Shown here: positions 11,762-52,285 of the stretch, piece after piece
Position numbering within the stretch: the stretch's first letter is position 1
Layout of the letters: every line of letters starts with the position of its first letter
Origin: Omphiscola glabra
Lineage: Eukaryota; Mollusca; Gastropoda; Lymnaeidae
Length of the DNA: 64,000 nt
Direction of reading: 5' to 3'
Assembly: GCA_964017045.1 (NCBI GenBank)
Contig: OZ024796.1
Span: 374,501-438,500 of the forward strand
Notes under the pieces: generated by a model
Seen by the model: the letters and a program-made list of their open reading frames with translations, nothing else
Database searches by the model: none
What the model was told of the DNA's origin: nothing
Translations under genes and position numbers: made by a program

Positions 11762-12062
11762 CGTTACCGGAAATTTGATCGAAAGAAATTTCGTCGACGG
11801 AAAATTGATCGACAAAAATTTGATCGAACGGACATTTGGTCGAATCTTTTTTTCAGTTCACGCGTTAAAATTTTCGTTAAGTTTCTTTTAAACGCACTAT
11901 ACTATATAGTAAAACGAAATAATGCATTCAAAAAGAAATTTGAAGCAAAATTTGAACGTGTGGACTGAAAAAAAGATTCGACCAAATTTCCGTTCTATCA
12001 AATTTCCATCGATCAATTTTCCATCGACGAAATTTCTTACGATAAAATTTCCGGATACGATA
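11762..12062. mobile_element. Foldback MITE, complete copy
   Basis: The left arm begins TTACCGGAAATTTGATCG and includes TCGTCGACGGAAAATTGATC; the right arm is its reverse complement, ending CGACGAAATTTCTTACG and AAATTTCCGGATACG. Arms of roughly 100-120 bp flank an AT-rich centre. Related copies lie at 21,645-21,940 and 40,690-40,805. Confidence 0.8.
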
Positions 12063-12221
12063 ATAAATATGGAGTAGAATAAATATGTAGTATAACTTAA
12101 TACAAACTTATATTTAAAATAAATTATATAACATTTCACAACAACAAAATATAGAGATATTAATATTATTAAGACACCCTGGCAGTTCTAGGGTAGCAAG
12201 CCAGTAACACGAACCTAGTCT

Positions 12222-18200: not shown

Positions 18201-19995
18201 CAAACACCTTGGTCTTTACTACAAACACATTGGTCTTTACTACAAACACATTGGTCTTTACTGCAAACACATTGGTCTTTATTGCAAACACATTGGTCTT
18301 TACTGCAAACACATTGGTCTTTACTGCAAACACATTGGTCTTTACTACAAACACATTGGTCTTTACTACAAACACATTGGTCTTTACTACAAACACATTG
18401 GTCTTTACTACCAAAACATTGGTCTTTACTGCAAACACATTGGTCTTTACTGCAAACACATTGGTCTTTACTGCAAACACATTGGTCTTTACTGCAAACA
18501 CATTGGTCTTTACTGCAAACACATTGGTCTTTACTGCAAACACATTGGTCTTTACTGCAAACACATTGGTCTTTACTGCAAACACATTGGTCTTTACTGC
18601 AAACACATTGGTCTTTACTACAAACACATTGGTCTTTACTGCAAACACATTGGTCTTTACTACAAACACATTGGTCTTTACTACAAACACATTGGTCTTT
18701 ACTACAAACACATTGGTCTTTACTACCAAAACATTGGTCTTTACTGCAAACACATTGGTCTTTACTGCAAACACATTGGTCTTTACTACAAACTCATTGG
18801 TCTTTACTACAAACACATTGGTCTTTACTGCAAACACATTGGTTTTTACTACAAACACATTGGTCTTTACTGCAAACGCATTGGTCTTTACTGCAAACAC
18901 ATTGGTCTTTACTACAAACACATTGGTCTTTACTACAAACACATTGGTCTTTACTGCAAACACATTGGTCTTTACTGCAAACACGTTGGTCTTTACTACA
19001 AACACATTGGTCTTTACTGCAAACACATTGGTCTTTACTACAAACACATTGGTCTTTACTGCAAACACATTGGTCTTTACTGCAAACACATTGGTCTTTA
19101 CTGCAAACACATTGGTCTTTACTGCAAACACATTGGTCTTTACTGCAAACACATTGGTCTTTACTACAAACACATTGGTCTTTACTACAAACACATTGGT
19201 CTTTACTACAAACACATTGGTCTTTACTGCAAACACATTGGTCTTTACTACAAACACATTGGTCTTTACTACAAACACATTGATCTTTACTACAAACACA
19301 TTGGTCTTTACTACAAACACATTGGTCTTTACTACAAACACATTGGTCTTTACTGCAAACACATTGGTCTTTACTGCAAACACATTGGTCTTTACTACAA
19401 ACACATTGGTCTTTACTACAAACAAATTGGTCTTTACTACAAACACATTGGTCTTTACTACAAAAACCTTGATCTTTACTACAAACACATTGGTCTTTAC
19501 TACAAACACATTGGTCTTTACTACAAACACATTGGTCTTTACTGCAAACACCTTGATCTTTACTACAAACACATTGGTCTTTACTGCAAACACATTGGTC
19601 TTTACTACAAACACATTGGTCTTTACAGCAAACACCTTGGTCTTTACTACAAACACATTGGTCTTTACTACAAACACATTGGTCTTACTGCAAACACATT
19701 GGTCTTTACTACAAACACATTGGTCTTTACTACAAACACATTGGTCTTTACTACAAACACATTGGTCTTTAATACAAACACATTGGTCTTTACTGCAAAC
19801 ACCTTGATCTTTACTGCAAACACATTGGTCTTTACTGCAAACACATTGGTCTTTACTACAAACACATTGGTCTTTACTACAAACACATTGGTCTTTACTA
19901 CAAACACATTGGTCTTTACTACAAACACATTGGTCTTTACTACAAACACATTGGTCTTTACTACAAAACCTTGATCTTTACTACAAACACACTAA
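12222..19995. repeat. 21-bp satellite array, about 370 copies, with higher-order structure
   Basis: The unit is ACATTGGTCTTTACTGCAAAC with common variants (TACAAAC, TACCAAAAC, TTGATC). Because 21 is a multiple of 3 and the unit lacks stops in several frames, very long open frames appear on both strands (for example NTLVFTA repeated); they are not evidence of a protein. Rare variants recur at fixed spacing. CATTGTTCTT occurs at 14,901 and 16,287. ACATTAGTC ends its ATTA at 15,640, 17,026, 17,602 and 18,190. The array therefore contains a 1,386-bp (66-unit) duplication and then copies of a 588-bp (28-unit) block, one with a 12-bp deletion near 17,455. Single-base loss at about 19,685 shifts the frame. 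Confidence 0.97.
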
Positions 19996-21644: not shown

Positions 21645-21940
21645 AGGATTACCGGAAATTTGTTTGAAAGCAATTTCGTCGACGGAAAATTGATTGACGG
21701 AAGTTTGATCGAACGGAAGTTTGGTCGATTTTTATTTTTCAGTTCACACGAGCAAATTTTCGTCAAATTTAATTTTTGAATGCATTATTATACTATAGAG
21801 TATAACCCATTATTATACTATAGAGTATAACCCATTATTATAATAATATAGTATAACAAAAAAGAAATGCCTTCAAAAAGAAATTTAACGCAAAATTTAA
21901 TCTTGTGAACTGAACAAAAAATTTCAACTTACACATTATT
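21645..21940. mobile_element. Foldback MITE, diverged copy
   Basis: The left arm TTACCGGAAATTTG ... CGTCGACGGAAAATTGATTG is clear. The right arm survives only as CTTGTGAACTGAACAAAAAA and following bases. The centre holds three copies of TATTATACTATAGAGTATAA. Confidence 0.7.
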
Positions 21941-22205: not shown

Positions 22206-22284
22206 TTGACCTTTCTACTGTTAACAAAAATCTATTGTGTCCAAATTCACACCATACTTAATTCGTGCCTTAAATCTATTTCAG

Positions 22285-22524
22285 ATTGTCCAGTCGGCCT
22301 GTGGGGGGACAGCTGCCAAAAGATGTGTCCAGTCGGCCTGTGGGGGGACAGCTGCCAGAAGATGTGTCCAGCCGGCTGTCTGACCGACTGCAAACAGGAA
22401 GGAGACAAATGTGCTGTGGGCTGCACCATGAAGCAAGGAAAATGTTTTGGTGGCTGCAACAAGCTAGACGGGAAGTGTGTGGCAGGATGTGGTGAGGGCT
22501 GGTTCGGAACTAACTGTGAAAAAA
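22285..22524 (+). CDS. RTK exon 1 of those seen: EGF-like modules with internal duplication
   Basis: The exon lies between TTTCAG and AAAA|GTGAGT, 240 bp, phase 1 to 1. It encodes a cysteine-rich stretch starting [14 protein letters not shown] and ending [12 protein letters not shown]. The 13-residue block [13 protein letters not shown] occurs twice in tandem (39-bp period, 22,287 and 22,326), followed by a diverged third start at 22,365. This is an in-frame duplication of the exon's 5' end. The remaining cysteine spacing (GC-x-DC, KCAVGC, KCFGGC, KCVAGC) resembles MEGF/laminin-type EGF repeats. Module boundaries are uncertain because of the duplication. Confidence 0.85.
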
Positions 22525-25500
22525 GTGAGTTCGAAATGTTGACCCCAAAAAAACGTCGCCATTGGGATCTTGAAGTTTTTGTAATGAATGTGGCGTAGGA
22601 ATACGTGCGGCACTTCTTTTCTTTATATTGAGAGGTGGTATTTTGGGCGAAGTGCAGAGGTTTTTTTGTTGTTGTTTTTAAATGGGGCGACAAAAACCCT
22701 ACGCCGCCCAGGCGCCACTTACCCTATCACCTGACCAGCCCCTGTCACTGCCACTTACCCTATCACCTGACCAGCCCCTGTCACTGCCACTTACCCTATC
22801 ACCTGACCAGCCCCTGTCACTGCCACTTACCCTATCACCTGACAAGCTCCTGTCACTGCCACTTACCCTATCACCTGACCAGCCCCTGTCACTGCCACTT
22901 ACCTTATCACCTGACCAGCCCCTTTCACTGCCACTTACCCTATCACCTGACCAGCCCCTGTCACTGCCACTTACCTTATCAGTGAATCTCTTTGAATTGA
23001 ATAAATTACAATAATGATAACTAATAGTTGCTATTTTGTTTGAATCCACGAACTAAACTAGATATTTTAAGCATTGGTGTTTGATGGGGAGGTGGGTAAG
23101 TTTTGGTGTTTGATGGGGAGGTGGGTAAGTCTTGGTGTTAGAAGGGGATGGTGGGTAAGTCTTGGTGTTTGATGGGGAGGTGGGTATGTCTTGGTGTTTG
23201 ATGGGGAGGTGGGTAAGTCTTGTTGTTTGATGGGGATGGTGGGTAAGTCTTGGTGTTTGATGGCGAGGGTGGGTAAGCCTTGGTGTTTGATGGGGATGGT
23301 GGGTAAGTCTTGGTGTTTAATGGCGAGGGTGGGTAAGCCTTGGTGTTTGATGGGGATGGTGGGTAAGTCTATGTGTTTGATGGGGAGGTCGGCTGGTCAA
23401 CAATCAATTATAGCTTCATTGTCGCCATCACGCCTGTATTCTATGACTCGTAGTTTTGAATCTATGTTTTCACTTGTCCACAGTCTGTAATGACCAACAC
23501 TATGGTTACAACTGTGTCAACACTTGCGGTCACTGTTACAACGAAGAACCTTGTAACGCCGTTACTGGAGAGTGTAAATATGGATGTGTCCAAGGCTTCC
23601 GAGGCAGCAGCTGCAAGCAACGTAGGCAGAAGAAAACAATTGCTATAGACATATTTGTTTTTCTTTTCATTATTTTTGTTCTCTAAATAAATTGTCATGA
23701 GTTTGGTTACTTTGTCAACTATTGCATACATCTGTCAATAGGACCGGTGTATATCAACATTCTTATCCTAATAATTTATAACACAAGATGATATATTTTT
23801 TGATAATTGATTATCTTTCAGAAATTTATTTTAATTTGCCCAACAATCAATTTGTTTATAATTTATAATAATTTCTTTCTGGATGTCTTGTTTGTGACGT
23901 CCTGTTTGTGACTTGCATCTGTAGTAAGAAAATTTTCTTGAAACTTCCACTACAATACTGACTCTTCTGACGCATGTCCACTGCAAAACTGACTCTCCTG
24001 ACGCACTTTCACGACAATACTGACTCTTCTATCGCACCTCTACTGCAATACTGACTATTCTAACATATTGTAGATTACTTTTTTTGAAATATATAATTAC
24101 CGTGTGCCTTTGAAAAAGTGATATTTCAACTTAAAGTATCAATATTTTTCAAATGACAGATTGTGAAGACAACACTTATGGCTACAACTGTAATGAAACT
24201 TGCGGCCATTGCAGACGGAACGAATCTTGTAACAAGATGACTGGGAAATGTACTGGGGGCTGTGACCGGGGCTGGTCTGGTGATACGTGCAAACAAGGTG
24301 AGTGGTGGGGGACTGTGACAGTAGGCTGTGACTGGGGCAGGTCTGGTGATACGTGCAAACAAGGTGAGTGGTGGGGGGCTGTGACAGTAAGCTGTAACAG
24401 GGGCAGTGACAGTTGCAAACAAGGTACCCGTCATGGGCTGCGACAGGCGGGGTTGTCATATACAGGGCTGGTCTGGTAATACGTTAAATAAGGTGAGTGA
24501 CATGGAAATGAGTGAAACAAAGTTTGGGAAAACCTGAAAAAAATAATAATGCAACAAAACAACGAACGTATCGGCAAGAAGCCTTCATCAGTCAAAAGTC
24601 AAAGCAGAATTAAATAAAAATAACACTTAGCTGAAATGTAGAATCCAAGGGGAATAAAGGATTATTTGTAATTAGAAACATCACCATGGTAACCGTGGAA
24701 AACAGTTGTCATTATGAACGTCTCTTTCAAATGTAAAAATAATTTCATGAAGAAGTGTGTACAGGAAACATGACATTTGTGAACATATGACATTTGTGAA
24801 CATATGACATTTGAGAATATATGACATTTGTGAACATATGACATTTGTGGACATATGACATTTGCAGGGGGGGGAGAGACAACAAAATAGAGTTACACAA
24901 AATGAAACCAGTGTTTATGATGTTTATAAGGTTCATCAAAATAAAAATAGACAGATAGGAAGGCGCTTCATTCTCATAGGGGGGCGCTGCATTCTCATAA
25001 GAAGGTGCTTCATTCTCATAGGGGGCGCTGCATTCTCATAGGAAGGCGCTTCATTCTTGTAGGAGGGTGCTTCATTTTCATAGGAGGGTGCTTCATTCTC
25101 ATAGGAGGGTGCTTCATTCTCATAGGAGGGTGCTTCATTCTCATAGGAGGGTGCTTCATTCTCATTGGAGGGTGCTTCATTCTCATAGGAGGGTGCTTCA
25201 TTCTCATAGGAGGGTGCTTCATTCTCATAGGAGGGTGCTTCTTTCTCACACGCATAGTCTTTTCTAAACCCTTCAACTGTTGCACTTGCTTGAAGTTCAT
25301 TTAAACAAATTTACGATTCTATCGTCCCCCAAAGAATTTTTTTAACATTTGTCTTGAGAACTTGCCCATATATCAATATAAGATGAGAACTTGGCCATAT
25401 ATCAATATAGGATGAGAACTTGGCCATATATCAATATAGGATTAAAACTTGGCCATATATCAATATGGGATGAGAACTTGGTCATATATCAATATGGGAT

Positions 25501-28500
25501 GAGAACTTGGCCATATATCAATATAGGATGAGAACTTGGCCATATATCAATATGGGATGAGAACTTGGCCATATATCAATATGGGATGAGGTGTTTTAAT
25601 TCGTTATACATGAAAAGTTCTCCGAAGAATTGGCGTTTGTTGGGATGTAGGCAGTTAAAAAACCTGGTCATTTGCATACGTCTTTTGTATCAAACAAAAA
25701 AAATCCCCGACTTTCTGGAAGCAAACCACATCCCGGCCCTTAATCCCACTGACAACAGGCATCTTCTTATAGAACTACAATTGGTGCCATTGTGTAGGTT
25801 GTCGGTGTTATTATCTGGTCTCTAGCGTTCAGCAGACGTGTGCGAAGTCGTTTATCTGGCCAGCCCTCAAAGATGGCGCCCCAGCTTGCCAGGTTGTTTG
25901 CGTAACGATGAGATAACCGAGCGGTTGGAAATAGTTGCCAGGATTTCCAGGAAGAGGCAAACACTCATTGCACTTTATTAGACCCACGTTTTCAAACAAA
26001 CCGTTTATTTAGTGAGAAAGGATTGTTCGGAATTTAACATTTTAAAAATATTAAAATTTTAAAAATATTATAAAAACTGTTTTATTTCCTGTCTAAAAAA
26101 TATTTGAAAATGACAAGGGAGCTGATCACGATGCCTTAAAATGTTAACATTAATTTCGATCATCCAGAGTTCTTGTTCTTATAAGTTTAAGTGGGAAAAA
26201 GAACCTCTACGTTAGAACTAAAGTTCTGGGGTCCTATGGTACTGTGGGTCACTGTGGTTCACTGAGGGTCATTGTGGGTCACTGAGCGTCACTGTGGGTC
26301 ACCGCGGCAAATTTAAAATTATATCCAAATTTATGTTGATATTAAATTAATTTTTTTTAAAACAACAAAACTCAAGTTTAATTTTTAAAATGTTCACATT
26401 TCTATTTATGTAAACTGTTGGACTATATGGATATAATTTGATGAAGTTTATGAAGACGTCTCTAAAGAATTTTTAAAATTTATGTCAACCCCCCTGCCCC
26501 CCCCCCCTTTTTTTTTTCTTTTCCATCTATCAACTTTACGAAGTTCAATTTACACCTCAACCCGAGGCGTAGTTTACAGGGGCGTTATCTTCAGATGTCT
26601 TAGGGCGTTTTCCTATTCTAATGGCCACAAATTCTGCAGAAATACCTTGCCATAGATCCCCAATGAACATGATCTCATTGACCTTGACCGAGTATCCCAG
26701 TGACTCTAAGTGACGCCATGGATCTTGTCTGCAACATTGTCTATTTATAACCTGTGTTTGCTGAACATGTCACAGCTCATTATTTCCACAAACGTTTTCA
26801 GCGTGTGATAAAGGGAGCCATGGTGTCGACTGTTTGGAACAATGTGGCAACTGTAAGGCCAACACCACATGCCATCACCACACCGGAGACTGTATTGAAG
26901 GATGTGCACCTGGGTGGAGGGGAGGAAAGTGTAATGAGGGTAAGTTTACAATAGAAAGTGTAATGAGGGTGAGTTAACAATAGAAAGTGTAATGAGGGTG
27001 AGATAACAATAGAAAGTGTAATGAGGGTGAGTTAACAATAGAAAGTGTAATGAGGGTAATTTTACAAAATAAAATGTAATGAGGGTGAATTAACAATAGA
27101 AAGTGTAATGAGGGTGAGTTAACAATAGAAAGTGTAATGAGGGTGAATTAACAATAGAAAGTGTAATGAGGGTGAGTTAACAATAGAAAGTGTAATGAGG
27201 GTGAGTTAACAATAGAAAGTGTAGGAGCACTTGTTGATGTCCAGTTGAAATAACTGCATGTTGGTTTTTGTGTCGCCGCCAGTGTATATAATTTAGGGCT
27301 AGGAAATTTGAAAAGATGTTCTGATCGGTTGACCTTGGTTGACCTTGGTTGACCTTGGTTGACCTGACTGTTGGGATTGGTTGATTTGAATAATTGAACT
27401 GAGGGTTTTAATTTTGATCATGAAGCGAGTTCTTTTATGAATTGGAAAATTATGACAGATTATTTTCATGTTTTATTTAGGGGCACGTTGGCAAGAAACT
27501 TCTATAATTTAGACCAATGATCCCAATATTTGTCTATGTTCACAGTCTGCATTCAACCAATGATCCCAATATTTGTCTGTGTTCACAGTCTGCATTAAAC
27601 CAATGATCCCAATATGTGTCTGTGCTCACAGTTTGCATTAAACCAATGATCCCAATATTTGTCTGTGTTCACAGTCTGCATTAAACCAATGATCCCAATA
27701 TTTGTCTGTGTTCACAGTCTGCATTAAACCAATGATCCCAATATTTGTCTGTGTTCACAGTCTGCATTAAACCAATGATCCCAATATTTGTCTGTGTTCA
27801 AAGTCTGCATTAAACCAATGATCCCAATATTTGTCTGTGTTCACAGTCTGCATTAAACCAATGATCCCAATATGTGTCTGTGTTCACAGTTTGCCCAGCT
27901 GGGAAATACGGTCCGAATTGCCGTGCAATGTGTGGCAGGTGTCTTAAAGGTACTTGTGATCACATGACTGGCGAGTGTCATGGCGGCTGTACAAGTGGCT
28001 ACTGGGGGTCTCGGTGCAAGGAAGGTAGGTCATTTTCAATACGTCTGGCTATAACATGTGTTGCCATAGCAACAGTTAGCCTGGCTATAACATGGGTCAC
28101 CATAGCAACAGTTAGTCTATCTATAACATATGTCACCATAGCAACAATTTGTCTGGCTATAACATGGGTCACCATAGCAACAGTTAGTATATCTATAACA
28201 TGGCTCACCATAGCAACAATTTGTCTACCTAAAACATGGGTCACCATAGCAACAATTTGTCTGGCTATAACATGGGTTTCCATAGCAACAGTAATGTTTT
28301 GTAAAGGTTGAAGGGGCCTCACATTGATCCAGCTAATTGACGCAGCAGCTATGGTCCCCAGCTATGGCCCCTATCTATGTTCCCCAGCTTTGGCCCCCAG
28401 CTATAGCTCCCAGTTCTCGCTCCCAGCTATTGCTCCCAGCTATTGCCCCCAGCTATGGCCACCAACTATGGCCCCCAGCTATGGCTCCCAGCTATGGTCC

Positions 28501-31500
28501 CCAGCTATGAGCCCCATAAGGGAATGCATTTTCTAGTTATGCCATTGCTTGACTCAAAAGTTTCTTTTCCCGTCTCTAAACAATAAGCGGACAACTCTTG
28601 CAATGATATGTCAAGATTCGACAAAAGATAACATGTCATATCGGTATCATCTCGGTGTCACCTCGGTGTCATCTCGGTGTCATCTCGGTGTCATCGTTTC
28701 TTGATCTGTCATAACAATTTTTTTCTCCTGATGTCAGCATAATAGGATGTCTGGTCATAAGTATTTTTTTTAAATCCATTTTGTTATCCTGACATCAGCA
28801 TATCTTTTATCTGTGTCAGTCACACATAACAGTTTACCCCATCTTTTTTTTTACCCAGCCTGCCCATCCGGATGGTATGGTGAAAACTGCACTTTTCCCT
28901 GTGGTCACTGCCAGGGATCGTCCAGCTGTGAACCTATGAATGGGATCTGTCGCGAAGGATGTGCATCTGGTTACCATGGTGTTATGTGTTCCCAAAGTAA
29001 GTCTGCTCAGGCTGAACCACGACACTTTGATATTACATGACTTACCTCTGTCCAAAACTGACAATTTAAGTAGTTTCAAATATCTTTGATATTACATGAC
29101 TTACCCCTGTCCAAAGCTGACAATTTAAGTAGTTTCAAATATCTTTGATATTACATGACTTACCTCTGTCCAAAGCTGACAATTTAAGTAGTTTCAAATA
29201 TCTTTGATATTACATGACTTACCTCTGTCCAAAGCTGACAATTTAAGTAGTTTCAAATATCTTTGATATTACATGACTTACCTCTGTCCAAAGCTGACAA
29301 TTTAAGTAGTTTCAAATTTCTTTGATATTACATGACTTACCTCTGTTCAAAGCTGACAATTTAAGTAGTTTCAAATATCATTGATATTACATGACTTACC
29401 TCTGTCCAAAATCTGACAATTTAAGTAGTTTCAAATATCTTTGATATTACATGACTTACCTCTGTCCAAAATTGACAATTAAGTAGTTTCAAATATCTTT
29501 GATATTACATGACTTACCTCTGTCCAAAGCTGACAATTTAAGTAGTTTCAAATATCTTTGATATTACATGACTTACCTCTGTCCAAAATTGACAATTAAG
29601 TAGTTTCAAATATCTTTGATATTACATGACTTACCTCTGTCCAAAATTGACAATTAAAGTAGTTTCAAATATCTTTGATATTACATGACTTACCTCTGTC
29701 CAAAACTGATAATTTAAGTAGTTTCAAATATCTTTGATATTACATGATTTACCTCTGTCCAAAACAGACAATTTAAGTAGTTTCAGATATCTTTGATATT
29801 ACACGACTTACCTCTGTCCAAAACAGACAATTTAAGTAGTTTCAGATATCTTTGATATTACATGACTTACCTCTGTCCAAAACTGATAATTTAAGTAGTT
29901 TCAAATATCTTTGATATTACATGACTTACCTCTGTCCAAAGCTGACAATTTAAGTAGTTTCAAATATCTTTGATATTACATGACTTACCTCTGTCCAAAG
30001 CTGACAATTTAAGTAGTTTCAAATATCTTTGATATTACATGACTTACCTCTGTCCAAAATTGACAATTAAGTAGTTTCAAATATCTTTGATATTACATGA
30101 CTTACCTCTGTCCAAAACTGATAATTTAAGTAGTTTCAAATATCTTTGATATTACATGACTTACCTCTGTCCAAAGCTGACAATTTAAGTAGTTTCAAAT
30201 ATCTTTGATATTACATGACTTACCTCTGTCCAAAATTGACAATTAAAGTAGTTTCAAATATCTTTGATATTACATGACTTACCTCTGTCCAAAATCTGAC
30301 AATTTAAGTAGTTTCAAATATTTTTTTATATTACTTGACTTACATCTGTCCAAAACAGACAATTTAAGTAGTTTCAAATATCTTTGATATTACATGACTT
30401 ACCTCTATCCAAAACTGGCAGTTTAAGTAGTTTCAAGTATTTTTGATATTACATGACTTACCTCTATCCAAAACTGATAATTTAAGTAGTTTCAAATATC
30501 ATTGATATTACATGACTTACCTCTGTCCAAAACAGACAATTTAAGTAGTTTCAGATATCTTTGATATTACATGACTTACCTCTGTCCAAAACTGATAATT
30601 TAAGTAGTTTCAGATATCTTTGATATTACATGACTTACCTCTTTCCAAAACTGATAATTTAAGTAATTTCAAATAACTTGGATGTTTTACTTCCAAAACA
30701 TAAATGAAATAAGTCAATAGAATGAACTGAATGAGTTCATTCATTGAACAAATATATATAGACTTAACTAAATGACGTCATCGTGATCCATGTTGTGATC
30801 ACGCCAATCTTCCACTGTGACCACAGCTATGTGGAGAAACATGTTCCACTGTGACCAAAGTTATGTGGGAATTATGTTCCACTGTCAGCAAAGTTATGTG
30901 GGAACCATGTTCCAATGTGACCTTAGCTATGTGGGAACCATGCTCCACTGTGACCAAAGCTATGTGGGAACCATGTTCCACTGTCAGCAAAACTATGTGG
31001 GAACTATGTTCCACTGTGACCAAAGCTATGTGGGAACCATGTTACAAACCCATGTTTTGTTCCTTTCAGATTGCTCGGCTGGTACATACGGCGACGACTG
31101 CAAATTTCTTTGCGGGCAGTGTAAGAGTGGATCAGCGTGTGACGTCATATCCGGTCTTTGCACATCCGGGTGTGGGGAAGGCTGGGAAGGGGACAAATGC
31201 AAAACTGGTAATACATGTATTCAATACTTTTAGAGAGTAAGTAAATACCTCTGATAAAATAGTTTCATAGAGTGTAGACATTAGATTATCATTACGACTA
31301 GAAGGGCGATATGTGAGACCTAGGATTAGGGGCCATAGATATTCCTATTTAAGTATTTAAATGAGAGCCGAGACACCTGAAGGTTTTAAAGACGGCCATA
31401 GAATCCTTGCTTGCAGCACATATTGGTGAAACAGCTCATACTGATAACAGCTCATACTAATGAAACAGCTTTTAATTTAAAAAACAACCCTTGATTATCA

Positions 31501-34500
31501 TACAAATGACCCAAATACCATCTACTTTATTTTAGCAATTGATGATAAAAATTACCTTTATATTTCGTTTTACTTCATTGCGCTTTCCGTTGAATGAACA
31601 ACATACTTTGAATATCGAATCTGCTGACCACATCTGTCTCCCCCCCCCCCCCCAACAGGAGTCCAACGAACAACAAATGCCTTTCACTCGTCACCCACAT
31701 TCCCTGTCCTTATCATCTGCCTGGTGGCTGCGGTCATTCTCATCACTATCGTCTTCACCTACTTCGTCGTCGTCCGACCAAGGAAGACGGCACTAAGGCG
31801 GCTGTACAACACATCGGTAAGTGGAATAGTGTCATTGTTGGCCGTCTGGTCATGTAGTGTCATTGTTGGCCGTCTGGTCATGTAGTGTCATTGTTGGCCG
31901 TCTGGTCGTATTGACTGAAAATGAATATTGCATACATTGACCACGGAATTGGAAAATACATTAATATTAGCAACGGCTCTCTAAAGAAAAGAAAATAATT
32001 ATTTTGCATGTATATGGTAATATGAGAACTAAAAGACTCCCCAAAAAGACTCCCCCCAAAAGACGCCCCCCCAAAAGGACACCCCCAAAAAGACGTCCCA
32101 CAAAAGACACCCCCCCCAAAATGACACCCCCAAAAAGACGCCCCCAAAAGGCACCCCCCCAAAAGACGCCCCCAAAAGGCACCCCCCAAAGAGACGCCCC
32201 CGAAAGACACCCCAAAAAAGACGGCCCCCAAAAGACACACACCCCCAAAAAAGACACCCCCAAAAAAGACACCCCCCAAAATACCCCCCCCCCCCAAAAG
32301 ACGCCCTTAAATCCATTTACACGAAAACTCAACCACATCACATATTTGTAGCACACTAGCATTCGAGAGTAATGTATTCTAAAGTAATGCATAGTAAAGT
32401 AATGCGTTGTAAAGTAATGTAGTCTAAAGTAATTCAGTCTAAATTAATGTATTGTAGACTTCATTGGTTTAAACGTGTACCATGACTTTATCCATGGAGA
32501 CATGCAAAACAAGAAATGACTTTTAACAGTGTAAGAAACGAAATTAGCAGGTTCCTTTTAAGTGATTGAATTATCACCTATTAGCTGATGACAAGCAGAT
32601 GTAGGTCACTGCCAACAGTCGAAATACTTTTGTTATCTTGTGTCTAACATTGGTCGTCTTTCGCATCTGAAGATGGCCAGGCTTCAATTCTAGCAGTAGC
32701 CTTGAGTTAAGTTTTATTTTGTTTAAAATGAGGAAGAGCCACTCTATTCGTCAGCCTCACACTCTAGTCCTTTCCAATTCGATCCAATGGCAAGACTTAG
32801 TCAAGACGACTGGAGATTAACCAGGATGCAGTGGATGACCAATGGCAAGACTTAGTCAAAACGACTGGAGATAGACCAGGATGCAGTGGATGACCAATGG
32901 CAAGACTTAGTCAAGACGACTGGAGATAGACCAGGATGCAGTGGATGACCAATGGCAAGACTTAGTCAAGACGACTGGAGATAGACCACGATGCAGTTGA
33001 TGACCAGCATTGTTTCATGTGTCGCACTGCGCTCATTATGCGTTCCACGTTGCAAAATTTGTCGGAAATGTCTTAGTGTCAAGGCCATACTGCCTATGGG
33101 ACTCCATCTCCGGGTTTAATTTCAGAGTTTGCATTCACTAAGATGATTTGCCTGCTCTTAAGTCTTAGCTGAGTTGCCATCCAAGTACCACAAGATTTTC
33201 TCTCTTGTATTTCCTATTACTAAACTATTGCATTAGCAGAGTAACATTAAATATCACTCTGGTAAGACAAGTAAACATATGTATGACACAGTTATTGTAT
33301 GTATGACACAGTTCTTGTATGTATGACACAGTTCTTGTATGTCTGACACAGTTCTTGCATGTATGACACAGTTATTGTATGTCTGACACAGTTCTTGCAT
33401 GTATGACACAGTTATTGTATGTCTGACACAGTTCTTGCATGTATGACACAGTTACTGTATGTATGACACAGTTCTTGTATGTATGACACAGTTCTTGTAT
33501 GTCTGACACAGTTCTTGTATGTATGAAACAGTTCTTGTATGTATGACACAGTTCCTGTATGTATGACACAGTTCTTGTATGTCTGACACAGTTCTTGGAT
33601 GTATGACACAGTTCTTGTATGTATGACACAGTTCTTGTTTGTATGACACAGTTCTTGTTTGTATGACACAGTTCTTGGATGTATGACACAGTTCTTGTAT
33701 GTATGATACAGTTATTGTATGTCTGACACAGTTCTTGCATGTATGACTCAGTTCTTGTATGTCCGCAGAGCAATGAACACCTCAGCAACACCTATGAACA
33801 GATTGTTGGGAGCCCTTGGGAGATACAGCGGGGTCAGCTGTCACTTAGCAACGAGTTGCTGGGCAACGGCCAGTTCGGGCAGGTCAAGCGAGGACACGTG
33901 AAAATAAATGGGGTCAAGGTCCCTGTTGCCATCAAATCTTTGAAAGGTGAGGATCTGATTAGAACGGAAGCATGTTGTTTTTTGTTTTTTTTAAATGCGT
34001 GTAATGCTCAATTTCGTTTAGTTACCAACAAACTGTGTTAAAAAAGATGGATACAAAATAAAAAAATTAATCTTTAAAAAAGGATTTAATTGAACTTTAA
34101 ATTGAACAATATTTATAGGATTTTTTTAGGTAGGTTTGGTGAGTCACACCAACTGGATTTCGATTTATTTCGCCAAAGTAAAAGAAATCTATGTAGAAAT
34201 GAGTTTTTTCTATTCTGTCAGAAAGTGCTCTCATTTGTCAGATGTCATTTTTCGTATGTTCTTGACAAGTAAAATTTTCCATATGTCACACAGATAATCT
34301 AACATTTTCCATGTGTCACACAATTATAATATAACATTTGCCACACGTCACACACAGATAACGAAACATTTTCTATATGTCAAACAGTTAATGTAACATT
34401 TTCCTAATGTCCCTTACCGATAATGTAACATTTTCCATATGTTCCACACAGATAATGTAACATTTTCCATACGCCCCACACAGATAATGTAACATATTCC

Positions 34501-37500
34501 ATATGTCCCACACAGATAATGTAACATATTCTATATGTCCCACACAGATAATGTAACATTTTCCATATGTCCCACACAGATAATGTAACATATTCCATAT
34601 GTCCCACATCGACAATGTAACATTTTCCATACGCCCCACACAGATAATGTAACATATTCCATATGTCCCACACAGATAATGTAACATTTTCCTTATGCCC
34701 CTTACCGATAATGTAACATTTTCCATATGTCCCACACAGATAATGTAACATTTTCCATACGCCCCACACAGATAATGTAACATATTCCATATGTCCCACA
34801 CAGATAATGTAACATATTCCATATGTCCCACACAGATAATGTAACATTTTCCATATGTCCCACACAGATAATGTAACATATTCCATATGTCCCACATCGA
34901 TAATGTAACATTTTCCATACGCCCCACACAGATAATGTAACATATTCCATATGTCCCACACAGATAATGTAACATATTCCATATGTCCCACACAGATAAT
35001 GTAACATTTTCCATATGTCCCACACAGATAATGTAACATATTCCATATGTCCCACACAGATAATGTAACATTTTCCTTATGCCCCTTACCGATAATGTAA
35101 CATTTTCCATATGTCCCACACGGATAATGTAACATTTTCCACATGTCCCACACAGATAATTTAACATTTGCCATTTGTCCCACACAGATAATGTAACATT
35201 TGCCATTTGTCCCACACAGATAACGCATCAGCCAAGGACAAAAGAGATTTTCTAAACGAGCTTTCCATTTTAAAACGTGTTGGAAAACATGACAATGTCG
35301 TCTGCTTGGTGGGTGCGTGTCATATAAAAGGTGAGTACCTCTGCTTAGTGGGGTTGTGTCATATAAAAGGTGAGTACCTTTGCTTGTTGGGGGTGTGTCA
35401 TATAAAAGGTGAGTACCTCTGCTTGGTGGGGGTGTGTCATATAAAAGGGGAGTACCTCTGCTTGGTGGGGGCATGTCATATAAAAGGTGAGTAGCATGCT
35501 TGGTGGGGGATCGTCTCATATAATAGGTGAATACCTCTGCTTGGTGGGGACATGTCATAAAAGGGGAGTACCTCTGCTTGGTGGGGGCATGTCATAAAAG
35601 GGGAGTACCTCTGCTTGGTGGGGGCATGTCATATAAAAGGGGAGTACCTCTGTTAACCGTTTGACACCTAGTTTATTCCAGCACTGTTACAATCGCCATG
35701 GTTTTATGTTTGAAATTGTGTTTCTATTTAATTTGTCCAGGTTGGATACAATATGCAGGATTGAAATCTGTTAGCCATAAGTCCATTCGATAAAGTGGGG
35801 ACATCCTTAGGGGACGTTCGTAAATTACGTCACGCAAAAAATGACCTTTTAAGACCCCCCTCCCCCTTTGTCACGAAGTGTCACAAATTCTTTTCCCCAC
35901 CCCGTGTCACGTCACAACTGATAAAATCAAAACATACATAAAATTTTCATAAATAAACTAAGATTTTATTATATATTTGGATTGAGATGTAGCATTATTA
36001 GAAAACTGTGACGCGAAAAAACGAAGTCATCCACAAGCCGAATGTAACATGACCACAACAGTTCTTTGCGTCATTTTTCCATATGTCCAGAAAGTGTGAG
36101 CGACCGAGTTCATAGTAACTATAATACCTGAGGCAATGTTGACCTCAAATTATTGTTTTTTTAATATTAATTAAATAAAAAAATGTCCAAATTAGAAAAT
36201 TTAGATTATTAAAAAGTCACGAAATTTCGAACCCCCACTCCCCCTGTCACAAAGTGTCAAAAATTCTCGAACCCCTCTTTCCCCCTCATGAGCGTGACGT
36301 AATTTGCGAACGATCCCTTACATTAAATCTGTTAGCCATAGGTCCCTTGGATAAAGTGGGGCAAGTATGACAGTACATGATATATTGACTCTATTTGTCT
36401 CTGCCAGGTGTTATGTACGTCGCCATGGAGTACGCTAAACATGGAGATTTGCGTACATTCTTACGTCACAGTCGACGACTTACGTCACTGCACGAGTATG
36501 ACAACACGTCATCACCGTTTTTGCACACGGCACTACGCCCACAGTCTCTGATCAAGTTATCACTTGACACAGCTCAGGGATTGAAACATTTGGCCGAAAA
36601 ACAGGTGAATCTATAAAATATCTTTTCACTGGGGGAAAACAGGTGAATCTATAAATAGTATCTGACTGGGAAAAACTGGTCATATTTAACACACATACAC
36701 AGTGACACTAGAGATATGACCTATTAAAGGTAGCTGTCTATGCCAGATGTCGTTGACAGATGGACGGATGGCAACGCACTGACCAACAGGTGGCATAATG
36801 CTTTGTTAGACACATAGAGAAATGCTGCTCTCGGGGTTTCCGCGATGTGTCAGACATGAGCAGCGGCAAAGTCGATTTGGTTTACAGAGAAGGCGTGGAA
36901 ATGAGGGGTGGGAGGGGGCTGTACACAGAACAACATTTAAATATTAAGAATGAAAATAAAATTGTTTTTAAAGCGTATATTTTTGGCTCTCATTTCTGTT
37001 TACATTTTGGGGTCACCTCTTTTTTGTTCCATATACCTTCTATATACCTTCTATATACCTTCCATATACCTTCTATATACCTTCCATATACCTTCTATAT
37101 ACCTATGTTGTACGTGTACACATGAAATTCTAGATGACTTCAAACGTACCAACAGTCTTCCAATCACCCAGCTATGGGGGCCACTTTGATCACGTCCGCA
37201 GGGATCGGGTTGCTTCTAGCGGCGTATTCGGGAAAGGGGCAAGACCCGTGACTCCTATCACTGGGGGCCACTTTGATCACGTCCGCAGGGATCGGGTTGC
37301 TTCTAGCGGCGTATTCGGGAAAGGGGCAAGACCCGTGACTCCTATCACTGGGGGCCACTTTGATCACGTCCGCAGGGATCGGGTTGCTTTTAGCGGCGTA
37401 TTCGGGAAAGGGGCAAGACCCGTGACTCCTATCACTGGGGGCCACTTTGATCACGTCCGCAGGGATCGGGTTGCTTCTAGCGGCGTATCCGGGAAAGGGG

Positions 37501-40500
37501 CAAGACCCGTGACTCCTATCACTGGGGGCCACTTTGATCACGTCCGCAGGGATCGGGTTGCTTCTAGCGGCGTATTCGGGAAAGGGGCAAGACCCGTGAC
37601 TCCTATCACTGGGGGCCACTTTGATCACGTCCGCAGAGATCGGGTTGCTTCTAGCGGCGTATCCGGGAAAGGGGCAAGACCCGTGACTCCTATCACTGGG
37701 GGCCACTTTGATCACGTCCGCAGGGATCGGGTTGCTTCTAGCGGCGTATCCGGGAAAGGGGAAAGACCCGTGACTCCTATCACTGGGGGCCACTTTGATC
37801 ACGTCCGCAGGGATCGGGTTGCTTCTAGCGGCGTATCCGGGAAAGGGCCAAGACCCGTAACTCCTATCACTGGGGGCCACTTTGATCACGTCCGCAGGGA
37901 TCGGGTTGCTTCTAGCGGCGTATCCGGGAAAGGGGCAAGACCCGTAACTCCTATCACTGGGGGCCACTTTGATCACGTCCGCAGGGATCGGGTTGCTTCT
38001 AGCGGCGTATCCGGGAAAGGGGCAAGACCCGTAACTCCTATCACTGGGGGCCACTTTGATCACGTCCGCAGGGATCGGGTTGCTTTTAGCGGCGTATCCG
38101 GGAAAGGGGCAAGACCCGTAACTCCTATCACTTTTAAATCCTTTATATTAACTTCGCTTTAATTCGGATGTTTTTCTGTCTTGGTTTGTAGTTATTGACC
38201 CACTTCCCGTCATCCTATCGAGCTGAAATTCCTAGACTCGTTGCCGATGACAACACATTCTTTTGAATTTTCAGTCCCACCCCAGCCCCAAAAGTCCGTT
38301 TAACGCTACCAAATGACGTCACACAATAAAATTCCCGATAACTGCGCTAAATGAGACGCTTTAAAAAATCACAAGAGCTTTGGGTGCGTAAAATTCTCTT
38401 TTGTTTTTCAGAAATATTTGTTGAAATAAATATGTGGTGTAAAAGCGGGTGGGTCAGAATATTCATATACTTCAGGGGCGTGAAAAAATATGCAGTTGCG
38501 AGCCTTGGGGAGGAGCACTAATTGGGAGTCTTATAAAGTGCGTTAGAGTTTTGTCAGCTCCACCTCCACCCTAATTGCTCAATATTACATTTTATAAAGG
38601 AAAAAAAAGGTTTGTTTCAAGAGGGGGGGGGGGGTATTTCAATAATTTTAAAAATAGAACTTTTTTTATCTATAGAATGTCTGGATTTCACACTTTGGAA
38701 CATATACATTATGACATTTTGAGCCTACGGAACATATACATTATGAACTTTTGAGCCTATGGAACATATACATTATGACATTTTGAGCCTACGGAACATA
38801 TACATTATGACACTTTGCACCACCTTTGTAAATTTGTTTGCGCTGCCTGTAATTTTATCTTGGATCCGCCACTGCTCTCAAGAATTTGGCATCATTAGCG
38901 GTTTATGCACGTAAAAAGATTACGAATTAATGTTGAACTATGTCTGACTTGTCAATGTTTTTTTTCCCCCTGCCAGATAATCCACCGTGACGTAGCTGCC
39001 AGGAACGTTCTATTGGGAGACAAACTTGTCGCCAAAATAGCAGATTTTGGTCTGTCGAAAAATGACCAGACTTACGTTAAGACCTCCAGTGTAAGTTCAT
39101 TTTATGACCAGACTTACGTTAAGACCTCCAGTGTAAGTTCATTTTATGACCAGACTTACGTTAAGACCTCCAGTGTAAGTTCATTTTATGACCAGACTTA
39201 CGTTAAGACCTCCAGTGTAAGTTCATTTTGTATCTATCTTGTCGCATAACCTTTCTTTTTTTAAGTAGAACTTTGGGGGGAGGGGGGCCAAAAACCACCT
39301 CCCCACCCACACCCACACCTCCCCACCCACAACTCCCCACCCACACCTCCCCATCCCCACCCAAAAAAGAAACGCTGATTTGATCCTATTCAATGATTGT
39401 TTTGTTCACAATTATAAAAAAAGCATTACATAGCATTTTGTTCATTGATGTACGACCCCTGGAAATATGTTGCCCTTGTGGGTTAAGACAAGCGTGTACA
39501 CAACTATTGAACTCTCCCCCATAGACAGCGACGAGGCCATGACAGGCAGTTCCGGATCATACCAGCGAGAAGCCAGTATAGGAACTGCTCATTCCTACCA
39601 AAGACAATCAGGGACTGGAACAAGCTTCCAAAAGGAACAGTTGAGGCGACAACGCTTGACTCATTTGCGTCTATTGCCTCAGGCCTTCCAACCCCTAGTG
39701 CATGATACCCTCAAACAGTCACTCTTGTAATCAGTGAAATATCCTCATCAACACCAGGCACAGAGACATTGCAAATCCCATCTACATTCATAGGCGCCAT
39801 AATGATCAATAAATTGATCGTGGGCCCTTAATATATAGAAGAAGAAGAAGTAAAGTGGTTTGTTTTCTTTGTGCCAAAAATCAGATTTAAAAAAACACAT
39901 TACTCACTATATTTATGTGTGATATTCACTGATATGCTGGGAATGATGATTCTGGCAATGAATTAGAAATTTGTCTATGACGTCATTCACAGCCAATCTC
40001 CAACTCTATTGTAATGATATAACTTCGAAACAGATGTCGTTTTTTTATGGTTTTCAACGGGGAATTTCATCTCTGCAACCATCTTGTGAAGATTCTCCAG
40101 GAGCTATGATATTGTTTCCGAATAGTTAGCTTCTTCTTAGAGAAATATAATTAATATTTATTCTTAAATCTTTTCTTTTTTTCTTTACAGACTAGGGTGC
40201 CAATCAGGTGGATGGCCGTAGAGTCCCTGTTCAACAACACATACACCTTACAGAGTGACGTGTGAGTACAATTTTGAAACAATAATATTTTCCTAAAACA
40301 TAGGTGCCGGTTGGTTTGTGAATTATATTCAACTACTTTTATTTCCATTTCACGGAGCTAAAAAAACATAGTCAAATCTTTGATAGACATCCTAGTCTAA
40401 AAGGGGATTTAAATCTTTGAAATTTAGGTGGAATCTGTCTTTAACAATCGTGCAATCTTTCAGAAGTGAAAACCCAAGTCAACAGTCACAGCAATATGGC

Positions 40501-43500
40501 GGTATAACTTCCGTTTAAACAGAGTTTTTAAACAGCGCAACAGTGTGTAGATAATATTCTCCACTGTTCATCTTAATTAATACAGATAATAAGCCTCATG
40601 TGTTACGAAAATCGCCCTATGTTTCAAAATAGAAATAAATTTACATAAGCAAAACTTTCTATATATATACTACCAAACATAAAGATAAAGGACAATTTTC
40701 GTCAAATTTGATCTAGTGGACTGAGAAAAAAAAATCGACCAAACTTCCGTCGATCAATTTTTCGTCGACGAAATTTCTTTCAACAAATTTCTGGATACGA
40801 TCATAATTAACACTGGCTATTTTATGGACATTAATTGCGTCATTTGATAAGAATTCTGGTTAAGAGAGTTTGTTTCGTCGAAAGCGTGGGCAGCCGGAAG
40901 CACTTACACACTGAACGTATCAAAAACTCCAAAATGGACGAAGCTGGTTGAAGTACTCAAGTACGTATGTACTTATGTGCGCCGTACCATTGATAACAAG
41001 GAATGGTTCCATCGTGTGAATCTACAGAAGGGAAAGATAACATGACACATAACATTCTAAACAGTAATACAACCAGTCCATAAGTGGAACTAAGCGTAAA
41101 TTATGAGATTAAAGAAAAACATGATTGGATGTCACGAGGAGCTCTTTCACAAGAGTGAGACAAGGGGGTGTTAGGTGCCAACCGGCTATTTGGAAACCAG
41201 ACCATCTCTTTCACAAGAGGGTGACAGGTGCCAACCGGGCTATTTGGTACCAGACCATCTCTTTCACAGGAGGGTAAAAGGTGCCAACCGGGCTATTTGG
41301 TAGCATACCATCTCTTTCACAAGAGTGAGACTAGAGGGTGATGGGTGCTAACCGGGCTTTTGGTACCACACCATCTCTTTCACAAGAGGGTGATGAGTGG
41401 CAACTGGGCTATTTGACACCAGACGACAGTTGTCATTGACGACCTCAAATTTGCACTGTTTATTTTTTAAAAATCATAAAATTCTCAAATTTAACAGAAA
41501 AACGTGTAACTTTGAGCCTGTTTTTTTAGAACATTTAATTAAATCGTAACCGTTTTCATGATTTAAAACAATCTACGAAGGGCTTGCAAAAGACTAGTCC
41601 GACTAGTGGCTTCAGCATTTCTAAACCCGTGTAAAGAAATGTTGACGAGTAGGCCTACAACTTTCTTGCCATGTTGACGAGTAGGCGTACAACTTTCTTG
41701 CCATGTTGACGAGTAGGCCTACAACTTTCTTGCCATACACTTGAAAGATCCGCCTTACTTTGTGCTTTATTCTGATTTAACTTGGAGCTCAGATGGCATT
41801 CCTTGCATAGCATTAAATATCAGAGCTAATATTCACTTTTATTTCAGGTGGTCATTTGGAATTCTGCTGTGGGAGATCTTCACACTGGGAGGGACGCCTT
41901 ACTCCAGCATCGACAGTCAACAGCTGTTTACTTACCTGAAGGACGGACACAGGTTAAGAAAGCCCAGACTGTGTGACCAGGACATGTAAGCTCAACACAT
42001 ATTTAGTTCAATAAATTGACATTCATTTACAGCTCAACGGGAGTTAAATCTCAGCACATCCACGACATTAAATGGGGTCATCTCAGCACATCCATGACAT
42101 TAAATGGGGTCATCTCAGCACATCCACGACATCAAATGGGGTCATCTCAGCACATCCACGAAATTAAATGGGGTCATCTCAGCACATCCACGAAATTAAA
42201 TGGGGTCATCTCAGCACATCCACGACATTAAATGGGGTCATCTCAGCACATCCACGACATTAAATGGGGTCATCTCAGCACATCCACGACATTAAATGGG
42301 GTCATCTCAGCACATCCACGACATTAAATGGGGTCATCTCAGCACATCCACGAAATTAAATGGGGTCATCTCAGCACATCCACGAAATTAAATGGGGTCA
42401 TCTCAGCACATCCACGACATTAAATGGGGTCATCTCAGCACATCCACAACATTAAATGGGGTCATCTCAGCACATCCACGACATTAAATGGGGTCATCTC
42501 AGCACATCCACGACATTAAATGGGGTCATCTCAGCACATCCACGACATTAAATGGGGTCATCTCAGCACATCCACGACATTAAATGGGGTCATTTCAGCA
42601 CATCCACGACATTAAATGGGGTCATCTCAGCACATCCATGACATTAAATGGGGTCATCTCAGCACATCCACGACATTAAATGGGGTCATCTCAGCACATC
42701 CATGACATTAAATGGGGTCATCTCAGCACATCCACGAAATTAAATGGGGTCATCTCAGCACATCCATGACATTAAATGGGGTCATCTCAGCACATCCACG
42801 AAATTAAATGGGGTCATCTCAGCACATCCATGACATTAAATGGGGTCATCTCAGCACATCCATGACATTAAATGGGGTCATCTCAGCACATCCACGAAAT
42901 TAAATGGTGTCGTATTAAGCCATCTCAGCACATCCACGAAATTAAATGGGGTCATCTCAGCACATCCACGAAATTAAATGGTGTCGTATTAAGCCATCTC
43001 AACACATCCATGAGATTAAATGGGGTCATCTCAGCACATCCATGACATTAAATGGTGTCGTATTAAGCCATCTCAACACATCCATGAGATTAAATGGGGT
43101 CATCTCAGCACATCCACGAAATTAAATGGTGTCGTATTAAGCCATCTCAACACATCCATTAGATTAAATGGGGTCATCTCAGCACATCCATGACATTAAA
43201 TGGGGTCATCTCAGCACATCCATGACATTAAATGGTGTCGTATTAAGCCATCTCAGCACAACCATGACATTAAATGGTGTCATCTCAGTACATCCATGAC
43301 ATTAAATGGTGTTGTATTTAGTCCAGAAAATGGCGATATAAAGTCTTTTCACTTCTCTGATTACGAATTTTGACGTAATCAACTTTGACGTAATCAACTT
43401 TGACCTAATCTATTTTGACCTATTCTTTTCATTCAGAACATAAATACAGAGCTAAATATTGCCAACTTCTTTATGGAATTCAAGATATATTTATGTTTGT

Positions 43501-47221: not shown

Positions 47222-47740
47222 CAATCCCAAGCTGGTGGTCCCAAGCTGGTGGTCCCAAGCTGGTGGTCCCAAACTGGTGGTCCCAAGCTGGTGGACTCGA
47301 GTTTAATCCCCAGCAAAAACATCACCTGCACCCTGGGTGGATGGGATTTGTTGACCTTGGATGGCAGGGTGGATAGGACTTGATGACCTTGGATGGCAAG
47401 GTGGATAGGACTTGTTGACCTTGGATGGCAACTAATCTGAAAGATGGAAAACTCTGAAATCAAACTCTGAGATGGAGTCCCGTATGACATTGACATGATG
47501 AACATTGTGAGAACCCCTGCGACGTAGAATGCACAATGAAACATGCCCACACACCGCTGGTCATCTACTGCATCCTGGACTATTTCCAGTCATCTTGACT
47601 ACGTCTTGCCATTGGAACAAATAGGCAAGGGCGAGAGAGTGAGGCTGACGAATGGGGCAACTCTACCTCACTTTAAACAAAATACAGCTCAAGTCAAGGC
47701 TACAAGTCAAGTTGAAGTTCTGGTCAATATCGTATGCCAA
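47222..47740 (+). mobile_element. tRNA-type SINE with two internal tandem expansions
   Basis: The head repeats CAAGCTGGTGGTCC five times (47,229-47,290) before GGACTCGAGTTTAATCCCC. The body segment GATAGGACTTGTTGACCTTG then GATGGCA is repeated three times (47,335-47,430). The rest (GATGGAGTCCCGTATGACAT ... GAGGCTGACGAATGGGGCAA) is the reverse complement of the 32.7-33.2-kb copy. Confidence 0.7.
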
Positions 47741-51595: not shown

Positions 51596-51829
51596 GATAC
51601 GATGTGTTTAAAGTGACTCATTCTGACAGTGGGGATAACTCTAAATTCATTTTAACTTTTCATCCCCATAACCTTATGGCTCGTTACCTAGTTCTCAAAA
51701 GCCAGTTCATTCTTACAGCAGACCCTGTCACCAATGAGATTTTCAAAAAAACTCTTTTTGCTTTATGAGGGACAAGCGCCTTAGGGACATAATTGTTAGA
51801 TGCCACCCTCCCCCCCTGTTATTAAAGCA

Positions 51830-52285
51830 CATATTGGCACCAAAAGTTGCAACCGTAGCCATTGTAACACATGTACCTACGTGACTAAAGTTGACAAGAT
51901 CACATTCCCTCTGGAAATATTCAGATTCAAAGATGGTTTTAATTGCACACGTTGAAATGTGATTTACACAATCCTTTGAAAAAAAAATGTGTGGAAATAT
52001 ACGTAGGAAAGACAGGATGTCGCCTTGGAGACTATTTAGAAAACCCCTGTATAACATCAATAAACAAGCCCTTTGTCCAGTTTCAAAACATTTCAATAGT
52101 GCTGAACATTTTGGAACATTAGACATTGCAGTTACTACAGGTATATTGTATGCAAGTAATACACCGGATATAATTTTTATGGAAAATAAATTAATAACAA
52201 TATTTGGTACATTGACTCCATACTGATGAAGACATTTGCCAAAACGTTTACATTTATATTCTGTGTAATCATTATTAAAGCTTAA
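51830..52285 (+). mobile_element. Penelope-like element 3' remnant with GIY-YIG piece
   Basis: The plus strand encodes, with frameshifts and stops, CVEIYVGKTGCRLGD (about 51,988-52,032), the C-terminal half of a GIY-YIG nuclease motif, then SKHFNSAEH and ENKLITIFGTLTPY (to about 52,224). Next come CTGATGAAGACATTTGCC, AAAACG and ATTAAAGCTTAACC. The order GIY-YIG, FGTLTP, then a hammerhead-like core fits the end of Penelope-like retroelements. Broken and not functional. Homologous to 2,040-2,392. Confidence 0.7.

Follow-up and report, generated by a model that had tools for sequence, protein, structure and literature searches.

Tandem arrays fill about half of the intron sequence of a receptor tyrosine kinase gene in the gastropod Omphiscola glabra (Lymnaeidae), and at seven of its exon-intron junctions the repeated unit includes the splice site itself. 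The gene lies on the plus strand, at positions 22285-44099 of the 64,000-nt stretch analysed here, referred to as the window (contig OZ024796.1 of assembly GCA_964017045.1, positions 374,501 to 438,500 of the forward strand; positions below are counted from its first letter). In this gene, the copies lie in place beside the sequence they repeat, the outermost splice sites are intact, the repeated sites show no extra conservation, and arrays are in excess on the donor side. The reading we favour, with a probability of roughly 0.7, is that local DNA was amplified in place and tolerated at the junctions, the copies of splice sites being passengers, with a modest bias toward donors.

A kinase gene read through its outermost splice sites

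Exon boundaries were set by the continuous open frame and the GT-AG rule, and then compared with the intervals reported by Tandem Repeats Finder (TRF). The 15 exons found join into a single open frame of 710 codons, with GT-AG ends in 14 of 14 introns. That the outermost copies of the repeated sites yield one open frame across 15 exons supports amplification in place. The exons, all on the plus strand, are:

22285 to 22524: exon 1, EGF-like, containing an in-frame 39-nt coding array
23484 to 23621: exon 2
24160 to 24297: exon 3
26802 to 26939: exon 4
27890 to 28024: exon 5
28859 to 28996: exon 6
31070 to 31207: exon 7
31659 to 31816: exon 8, transmembrane segment (by eye)
33769 to 33946: exon 9, start of the kinase domain
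35220 to 35330: exon 10
36408 to 36604: exon 11
38977 to 39090: exon 12, with HRD, DFG and the first part of the activation loop
40191 to 40261: exon 13
41848 to 41985: exon 14
44000 to 44099: exon 15, end of the kinase domain, with an apparent donor of its own (CAG/GTAACT)

Exons 1-7 are cysteine-rich EGF-like repeats of phase 1-1, the hydrophobic segment of exon 8 looks by eye like a transmembrane helix, and exons 9-15 encode a tyrosine kinase. A Pfam search of the product of exons 1-14 returned PK_Tyr_Ser-Thr (E = 6.7e-75) and no EGF family below 1e-3, so that the basis for calling exons 1-7 'EGF-like' is their pattern of cysteines together with the mutual matching of the repeats. The closest solved structures by sequence, among the best 60 of 2508, are the EGFR, Tie-2, FGFR and Ret kinases, and an animal origin follows from the architecture of the gene. 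In a single alignment of the kinase to EGFR, the joints 10/11, 11/12 and 12/13 carry no insert; a 1-residue gap in EGFR falls a few residues past the 10/11 joint, and there is otherwise none at the joints. The donor of exon 2 at 23621 is weak (AAC/GTAGGC, 3.8 with the matrix used for all donor scores here).

Arrays that repeat donors and acceptors

With TRF (score 50, overlapping calls merged), we detected 37 arrays across the gene region, with best-scoring periods of 10 to 108 and 1.9 to 38 copies, covering 10,626 of its 21,815 nt and 10,402 of the 19,683 nt of intron (53%). With several copies of units of about 10-100 bp arranged head to tail, these are minisatellites. The initial annotation, made from the letters of the sequence, had placed arrays that repeat the donor at exons 3, 4, 10, 11 and 12 and arrays that repeat the acceptor at exons 5 and 10, and TRF intervals indeed span all five donors and both acceptors. 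At each of the five donors the array unit extends across the boundary, so that the donor is repeated, as in an exon-intron boundary variable number tandem repeat (VNTR). The arrays at and near junctions are:

24258 to 24406, plus strand: exon 3 donor array, 66-nt unit, 40 exonic nt, donors at 24297 and 24363
26925 to 27223, plus strand: exon 4 donor array, 29-nt unit, 10 copies, 15 exonic nt
35301 to 35652, plus strand: exon 10 donor array, 39-nt unit, 9 copies, 30 exonic nt
36598 to 36670, plus strand: exon 11 donor array, 38-nt unit, 1.9 copies, 7 exonic nt, the weakest case
39062 to 39229, plus strand: exon 12 donor array, 42-nt unit, 4 identical copies, 29 exonic nt, open in frame
27509 to 27894, plus strand: exon 5 acceptor array, 43-nt unit, 9 copies, 5 exonic nt
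34269 to 35223, plus strand: exon 10 acceptor array, 32-nt unit, 30 copies, 4 exonic nt
28043 to 28292, plus strand: array near the exon 5 donor, 36-nt unit, beginning 18 nt past the donor, which it excludes
29025 to 30683, no strand assigned: array near the exon 6 donor, 59-nt unit, 28 copies, beginning 28 nt past the donor, antisense GAGGTAAGT in the units
31827 to 31907, plus strand: array near the exon 8 donor, 28-nt unit, beginning 10 nt past the donor
30810 to 31043, plus strand: array near the exon 7 acceptor, 33-nt unit, stopping 26 nt short of the acceptor
33278 to 33762, plus strand: array near the exon 9 acceptor, 20-nt unit, 24 copies, stopping 6 nt short of the junction, 24 CAG sites inside
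22283 to 22376, plus strand: exon 1 coding array, 39-nt unit, 2.4 copies, in frame, running from the acceptor into coding sequence

Past the exon 3 array lie two degraded copies of the donor (24423 and 24492), and the copies of the exon 1 array open with AG/AT at 22283, 22321 and 22360. When 25 units were compared with all exon regions, the units of all seven junction arrays scored at least 104 against their own exon edge; the top score with a distant exon was 54 (the array at 22714 vs. exon 3), followed by 26.5. A copy of the exon 9 acceptor, which had been called probable, was not confirmed: the array ends 6 nt short of the junction, and the acceptor TGTCCGCAG is not recognisable as a copy of its unit (shuffle P = 0.17), so that exon 9 was rejected as a demonstrated case.

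Array starts are concentrated near donors

Because arrays fill 53% of the intron sequence, some overlap with junctions is expected. As a null we re-placed the arrays at random, allowing an exon overhang of at most one unit length, a limit that we judge fair. Under this null, 7 of the 30 junctions are spanned vs. 3.0 expected (P = 0.026), the excess lying with the donors (5 of 15 vs. 1.5 expected, P = 0.011) and not with the acceptors (2 of 15 vs. 1.5 expected, P = 0.46). The claim that chance overlap is unlikely thus holds only in part: about three spanned junctions would occur at random anyway, and the acceptors conform to chance. Dropping the exon 1 coding array and two arrays of 1.9 copies leaves 6 spanned junctions (P = 0.050). 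The outcome depends on the permitted exon overlap: with a limit of 40 nt, P = 0.064 for all junctions and 0.025 for donors, and with 100 nt there is no excess (P = 0.76 and 0.37, respectively), which weakens the case for a donor bias. With a limit of 10 nt, none of 3000 runs reaches 7 junctions, an unfair null given that five observed arrays exceed that limit.

An array starts at the donor or within 30 nt of it in 8 of 14 introns, compared with 2.8 expected gene-wide (P = 0.0018) and 3.0 when arrays are re-placed inside their own intron (P = 0.0027), the exon 1 coding array being excluded from this test. On the acceptor side, the same 30-nt window gives 4 introns vs. 2.8-3.0 expected (P = 0.30-0.36). 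Across eight detection settings the donor-start figure ranges from 7 to 9 vs. 2.3 to 3.0 expected, with P ≤ 0.0025 in each, and the acceptor-side figure is non-significant in all eight. Widening the window to 60 nt reduces the donor-start excess (P = 0.024 and 0.034).

The motif GGTRAGT, counted on either strand, occurs in 3 of the 31 gene arrays that do not span a donor, vs. 0.38 in shuffles (P = 0.008), and in 3 of 76 such arrays in the window (P = 0.046), with none in the 44 arrays outside the gene. With GTRAGT, a looser motif, the corresponding values are P = 0.087 in the gene and 0.48 in the window; the enrichment of donor motifs away from junctions is therefore weak.

That splice-junction DNA has been amplified into tandem arrays, as the initial annotation proposed, is borne out, and the starts of arrays are concentrated about 3-fold near the 5' splice sites of this one gene, which suggests a bias of initiation there. 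We read the donor-side bias as suggestive, because the 30-nt window was chosen after the data had been seen and the gene was picked for showing the pattern; the latter also makes the P values optimistic.

Repeated splice sites are not specially conserved

Copies were aligned to the unit in five of the seven junction arrays, those of the exon 3 and exon 11 donors (about 2 copies) being left out. Differences per column over all copies were 0.67 in the splice motif vs. 0.25 elsewhere for the exon 4 donor array, 0.67 vs. 0.70 for the exon 10 donor array, 0.25 vs. 0.23 for the exon 5 acceptor array, and 2.75 vs. 1.96 for the exon 10 acceptor array; the exon 12 array is uninformative because its four copies are identical. 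Removal of the outermost copy gave 0.56 vs. 0.20 (exon 4 donor), 0.67 vs. 0.67 (exon 10 donor) and 0.25 vs. 0.14 (exon 5 acceptor). Functional tandem splice sites would be expected to stand out from the surrounding unit sequence by stronger conservation, and in none of the four varying arrays do they. GT has become GG in 4 of the 9 copies of the exon 10 donor array. In the exon 10 acceptor array, a pattern that extends over several copies can be seen by eye to recur, as is typical of unequal exchange.

Most alternative copies would not yield an intact protein. A premature stop, located either in the insert or in the exon itself, follows from the use of each alternative acceptor listed (7 of 7 CACAG sites at exon 5, 21 of 21 CACAG sites at exon 10 and 24 of 24 CAG sites at exon 9), and the alternative donors at exon 4 (9 of 9) and exon 11 (1 of 1) likewise give stops. 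In the exon 10 donor array the frame reaches a stop past the fourth copy. Donor copies of equal score number 2 at exon 3, 4 at exon 10, 2 at exon 11 and 4 at exon 12. Each alternative copy at exon 12 would insert 14 residues in the activation loop of the kinase; the first-copy reading aligns to EGFR with no extra residues in that loop.

Donor-bearing arrays away from their exons

Two arrays in intron 1 carry a donor motif and are not attached to an exon:

22714 to 22981, minus strand: intron 1 array, 36-nt unit, inverted copy of the 3' end of exon 3, GGGTAAGT on the minus strand
23074 to 23389, plus strand: mid intron 1 array, 29/30-nt unit, sense GGGTAAGT, no exon attached

The unit of the first matches exon 3 without gaps at 25 of 28 positions (score 41; among 1500 36-mers taken from the window outside arrays, the highest score was 36) and with gaps at a score of 54 (maximum of 3000 shuffles, 36); its minus strand reads SDRGWSGD where exon 3 has CDRGWSGD. 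Two of the three unattached donor-motif arrays are antisense (22714-22981 and 29025-30683) and one is sense (23074-23389). An antisense donor is of no use to this gene and therefore favours a passenger origin of the copies.

The candidate that an EGF-like exon accompanies the antisense donor arrays was rejected: a profile of exons 2-7, run against 1854 six-frame open reading frames (ORFs), recovered exons 1-7 and, as a weak match, the inverted array (E = 0.0065), the remainder having E ≥ 0.26. The arrays at 22714-22981 and 24258-24406 are inverted relatives 1.3 kb apart that flank exon 2, and a transcript could pair with itself there.

A dispersed repeat as a probable before-and-after pair

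Amplification is also seen away from junctions, in one of the two copies of a dispersed repeat that serves as a comparison case:

47427 to 47703 and 32696 to 33152, opposite orientations: dispersed repeat pair
32784 to 33006, plus strand: amplified stretch within the second copy, 55-nt unit, 4.1 copies

The 55-nt stretch is single in the copy at 47427-47703, where CCA flanks it on both sides, and 4.1-fold in the copy at 32696-33152. Amplification in place would be a simpler reading of this pair than contraction.

Other sequence in the window

Of the arrays with units of at least 17 bp, only two have a match elsewhere in the window that scores higher than the best of 60 shuffles, and neither match is common to the junction arrays. 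At 12218-19991, a 21-bp unit (GTCTTTACTGCAAACACATTG) is repeated over 7.8 kb, and one plus-strand frame stays open for 2536 codons, which is possible because the period is divisible by three. A dispersed repeat with 15-mers like GATCGAAA occurs in both orientations at 11764-12069, 21649-21806 and 40704-40809. Within intron 12, the sequence at 39520-39740 resembles, by eye, the end of a reverse transcriptase of a non-LTR (long terminal repeat) retrotransposon, and pieces of ORFs at 51738-52223 resemble a Penelope-like element in its C-terminal part, with no Pfam match. G+C content falls from 0.38-0.45 at 36-44 kb to 0.30-0.32 at 44-60 kb and is 0.36 over the last 4 kb; array cover beyond 52 kb falls to 0-14%. 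Searches returned no Rfam match at the gathering threshold, no tRNA with the bacterial setting of ARAGORN, and no Pfam match at 0.01 for seven other ORFs.

Origin of the arrays and alternative explanations

According to the explanation to which we assign a probability of about 0.7, short stretches of local DNA would have been amplified in place, giving rise to minisatellites all through the gene. Where the duplicated stretch straddled a junction, the exon-adjacent copy would retain the exon end and the splice site as they were, and such an array may have been tolerated because that copy keeps the coding message unchanged; the remaining copies would sit in the intron, with their splice sites carried along as passengers. 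An array, after its formation, would expand and contract by slippage or unequal exchange while the splice motifs in its interior drift, and array births would be biased toward 5' splice sites (the end of the exon or the 30 nt next to it in the intron). Neutrality, the mechanism of amplification and the use of the outermost sites in RNA are what we infer here. Amplification of DNA that holds no splice site, namely the 55-nt stretch of the dispersed repeat and the coding array of exon 1, supports the same explanation, as do the insert-free kinase joints in the EGFR alignment, the lack of extra conservation of splice motifs in the four varying arrays, the recurring pattern in the exon 10 acceptor array and the scarcity of matches between array units and other parts of the window. 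Several points weigh against it. The alternative donors at exon 3 (2 of 3), exon 10 (3 of 3 strong copies) and exon 12 (3 of 3) are in frame and open, and at these exons, that is, in 3 of the 5 donor arrays, open alternatives go with a unit length divisible by three, a combination that could hint at use; isoforms from these donors are possible as judged from the frame. An excess at donors (8 of 14 introns vs. 2.8-3.0) is not what neutrality by itself would predict, and the dispersed repeat in which the 55-nt stretch is single may have arisen by contraction of an older array.

Confidence in the explanations weighed here is not mutually exclusive. Chance placement, by which arrays this dense must overlap some junctions whatever the splice sites do, is compatible with amplification in place and differs only in denying a donor bias. 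It accords with the share of intron sequence in arrays (53%), the 3.0 spanned junctions expected, the fit of the acceptors to expectation, the choice of one gene for its pattern and the loss of the excess at the 100-nt overlap limit (P = 0.76); however, the concentration of starts within 30 nt of donors in all eight detection settings (P ≤ 0.0025) speaks for a bias, and we regard chance placement alone as a serious but rather unlikely account. The initial annotation saw a maintained ladder of equivalent splice sites that makes isoforms or buffers the loss of a site. The equal-scoring donor copies at exons 3, 10, 11 and 12 (2, 4, 2 and 4) would fit such a ladder, as would the open in-frame inserts at exons 3, 10 and 12, the last adding 14 residues per copy to the activation loop. 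However, conservation is no higher in the splice motifs of the copies than in the remainder of the unit, GT is lost in 4 of 9 exon 10 donor copies, the alternative acceptors listed above and the alternative donors of exons 4 and 11 run into stops, and of the three unattached arrays with a donor motif two are antisense, all of which makes a functional ladder improbable. Copies of a mobile intron-making element that bears splice sites are a still different source, to which the relocated inverted copy of the end of exon 3 at 22714-22981 might point, but every junction array matches its own exon edge and no two junction arrays have units that resemble each other above the shuffle maximum; with no element sequence shared between junction arrays within the window, we rejected this source as very improbable.

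Amplification in place with a donor-side bias also admits a more far-reaching and speculative version, which we hold only tentatively, as doubtful in its entirety: 5' splice sites may be birthplaces of arrays in this genome, with new minisatellites arising preferentially at a donor or in the roughly 30 nt that follow it; introns would lengthen from their 5' ends and donor sequence would be multiplied. Donor-bearing arrays, such as the inverted copy of exon 3, might then be shed to new places and orientations and become a source of in-frame exon extensions (e.g., in the activation loop encoded by exon 12) and of new splice sites.

Relation to known systems

Minisatellites at exon-intron boundaries are already known as a type. 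In human CBS, a 31-bp VNTR lies across the exon 13-intron 13 boundary, and its unit includes the exon end and the donor; here, too, the unit holds an exon end and a donor repeated head to tail, although in this case a single gene shows the feature at five donors and two acceptors, known from one sequence. Canestro and colleagues are said to have described, in 2002, intronic 'mirage' minisatellites at exon-intron boundaries of amphioxus Adh, in an animal rich in minisatellites. The arrays described here likewise lie at exon-intron boundaries of one gene, with starts that show a suggestive bias toward the 5' ends of introns, and they include acceptor-side, inverted and coding arrays. Introns can arise by internal tandem duplication of exon sequence that contains AGGT, a process that similarly multiplies splice-like sequence, whereas here existing introns are lengthened and no new intron is shown. 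Introner elements, too, spread DNA that bears splice sites; in contrast to these, the junction arrays share no element sequence within the window.

The donor-side bias, suggestive as it is, is the point worth testing. Were it to hold throughout the genome, some feature of 5' splice sites, be it sequence, transcription-coupled structure or tolerance, would be tied to where minisatellites are born and to the lengthening of introns. If the bias is not general, copies of splice sites can still build up, probably harmlessly, which calls for caution in inferring function from repeated splice motifs.

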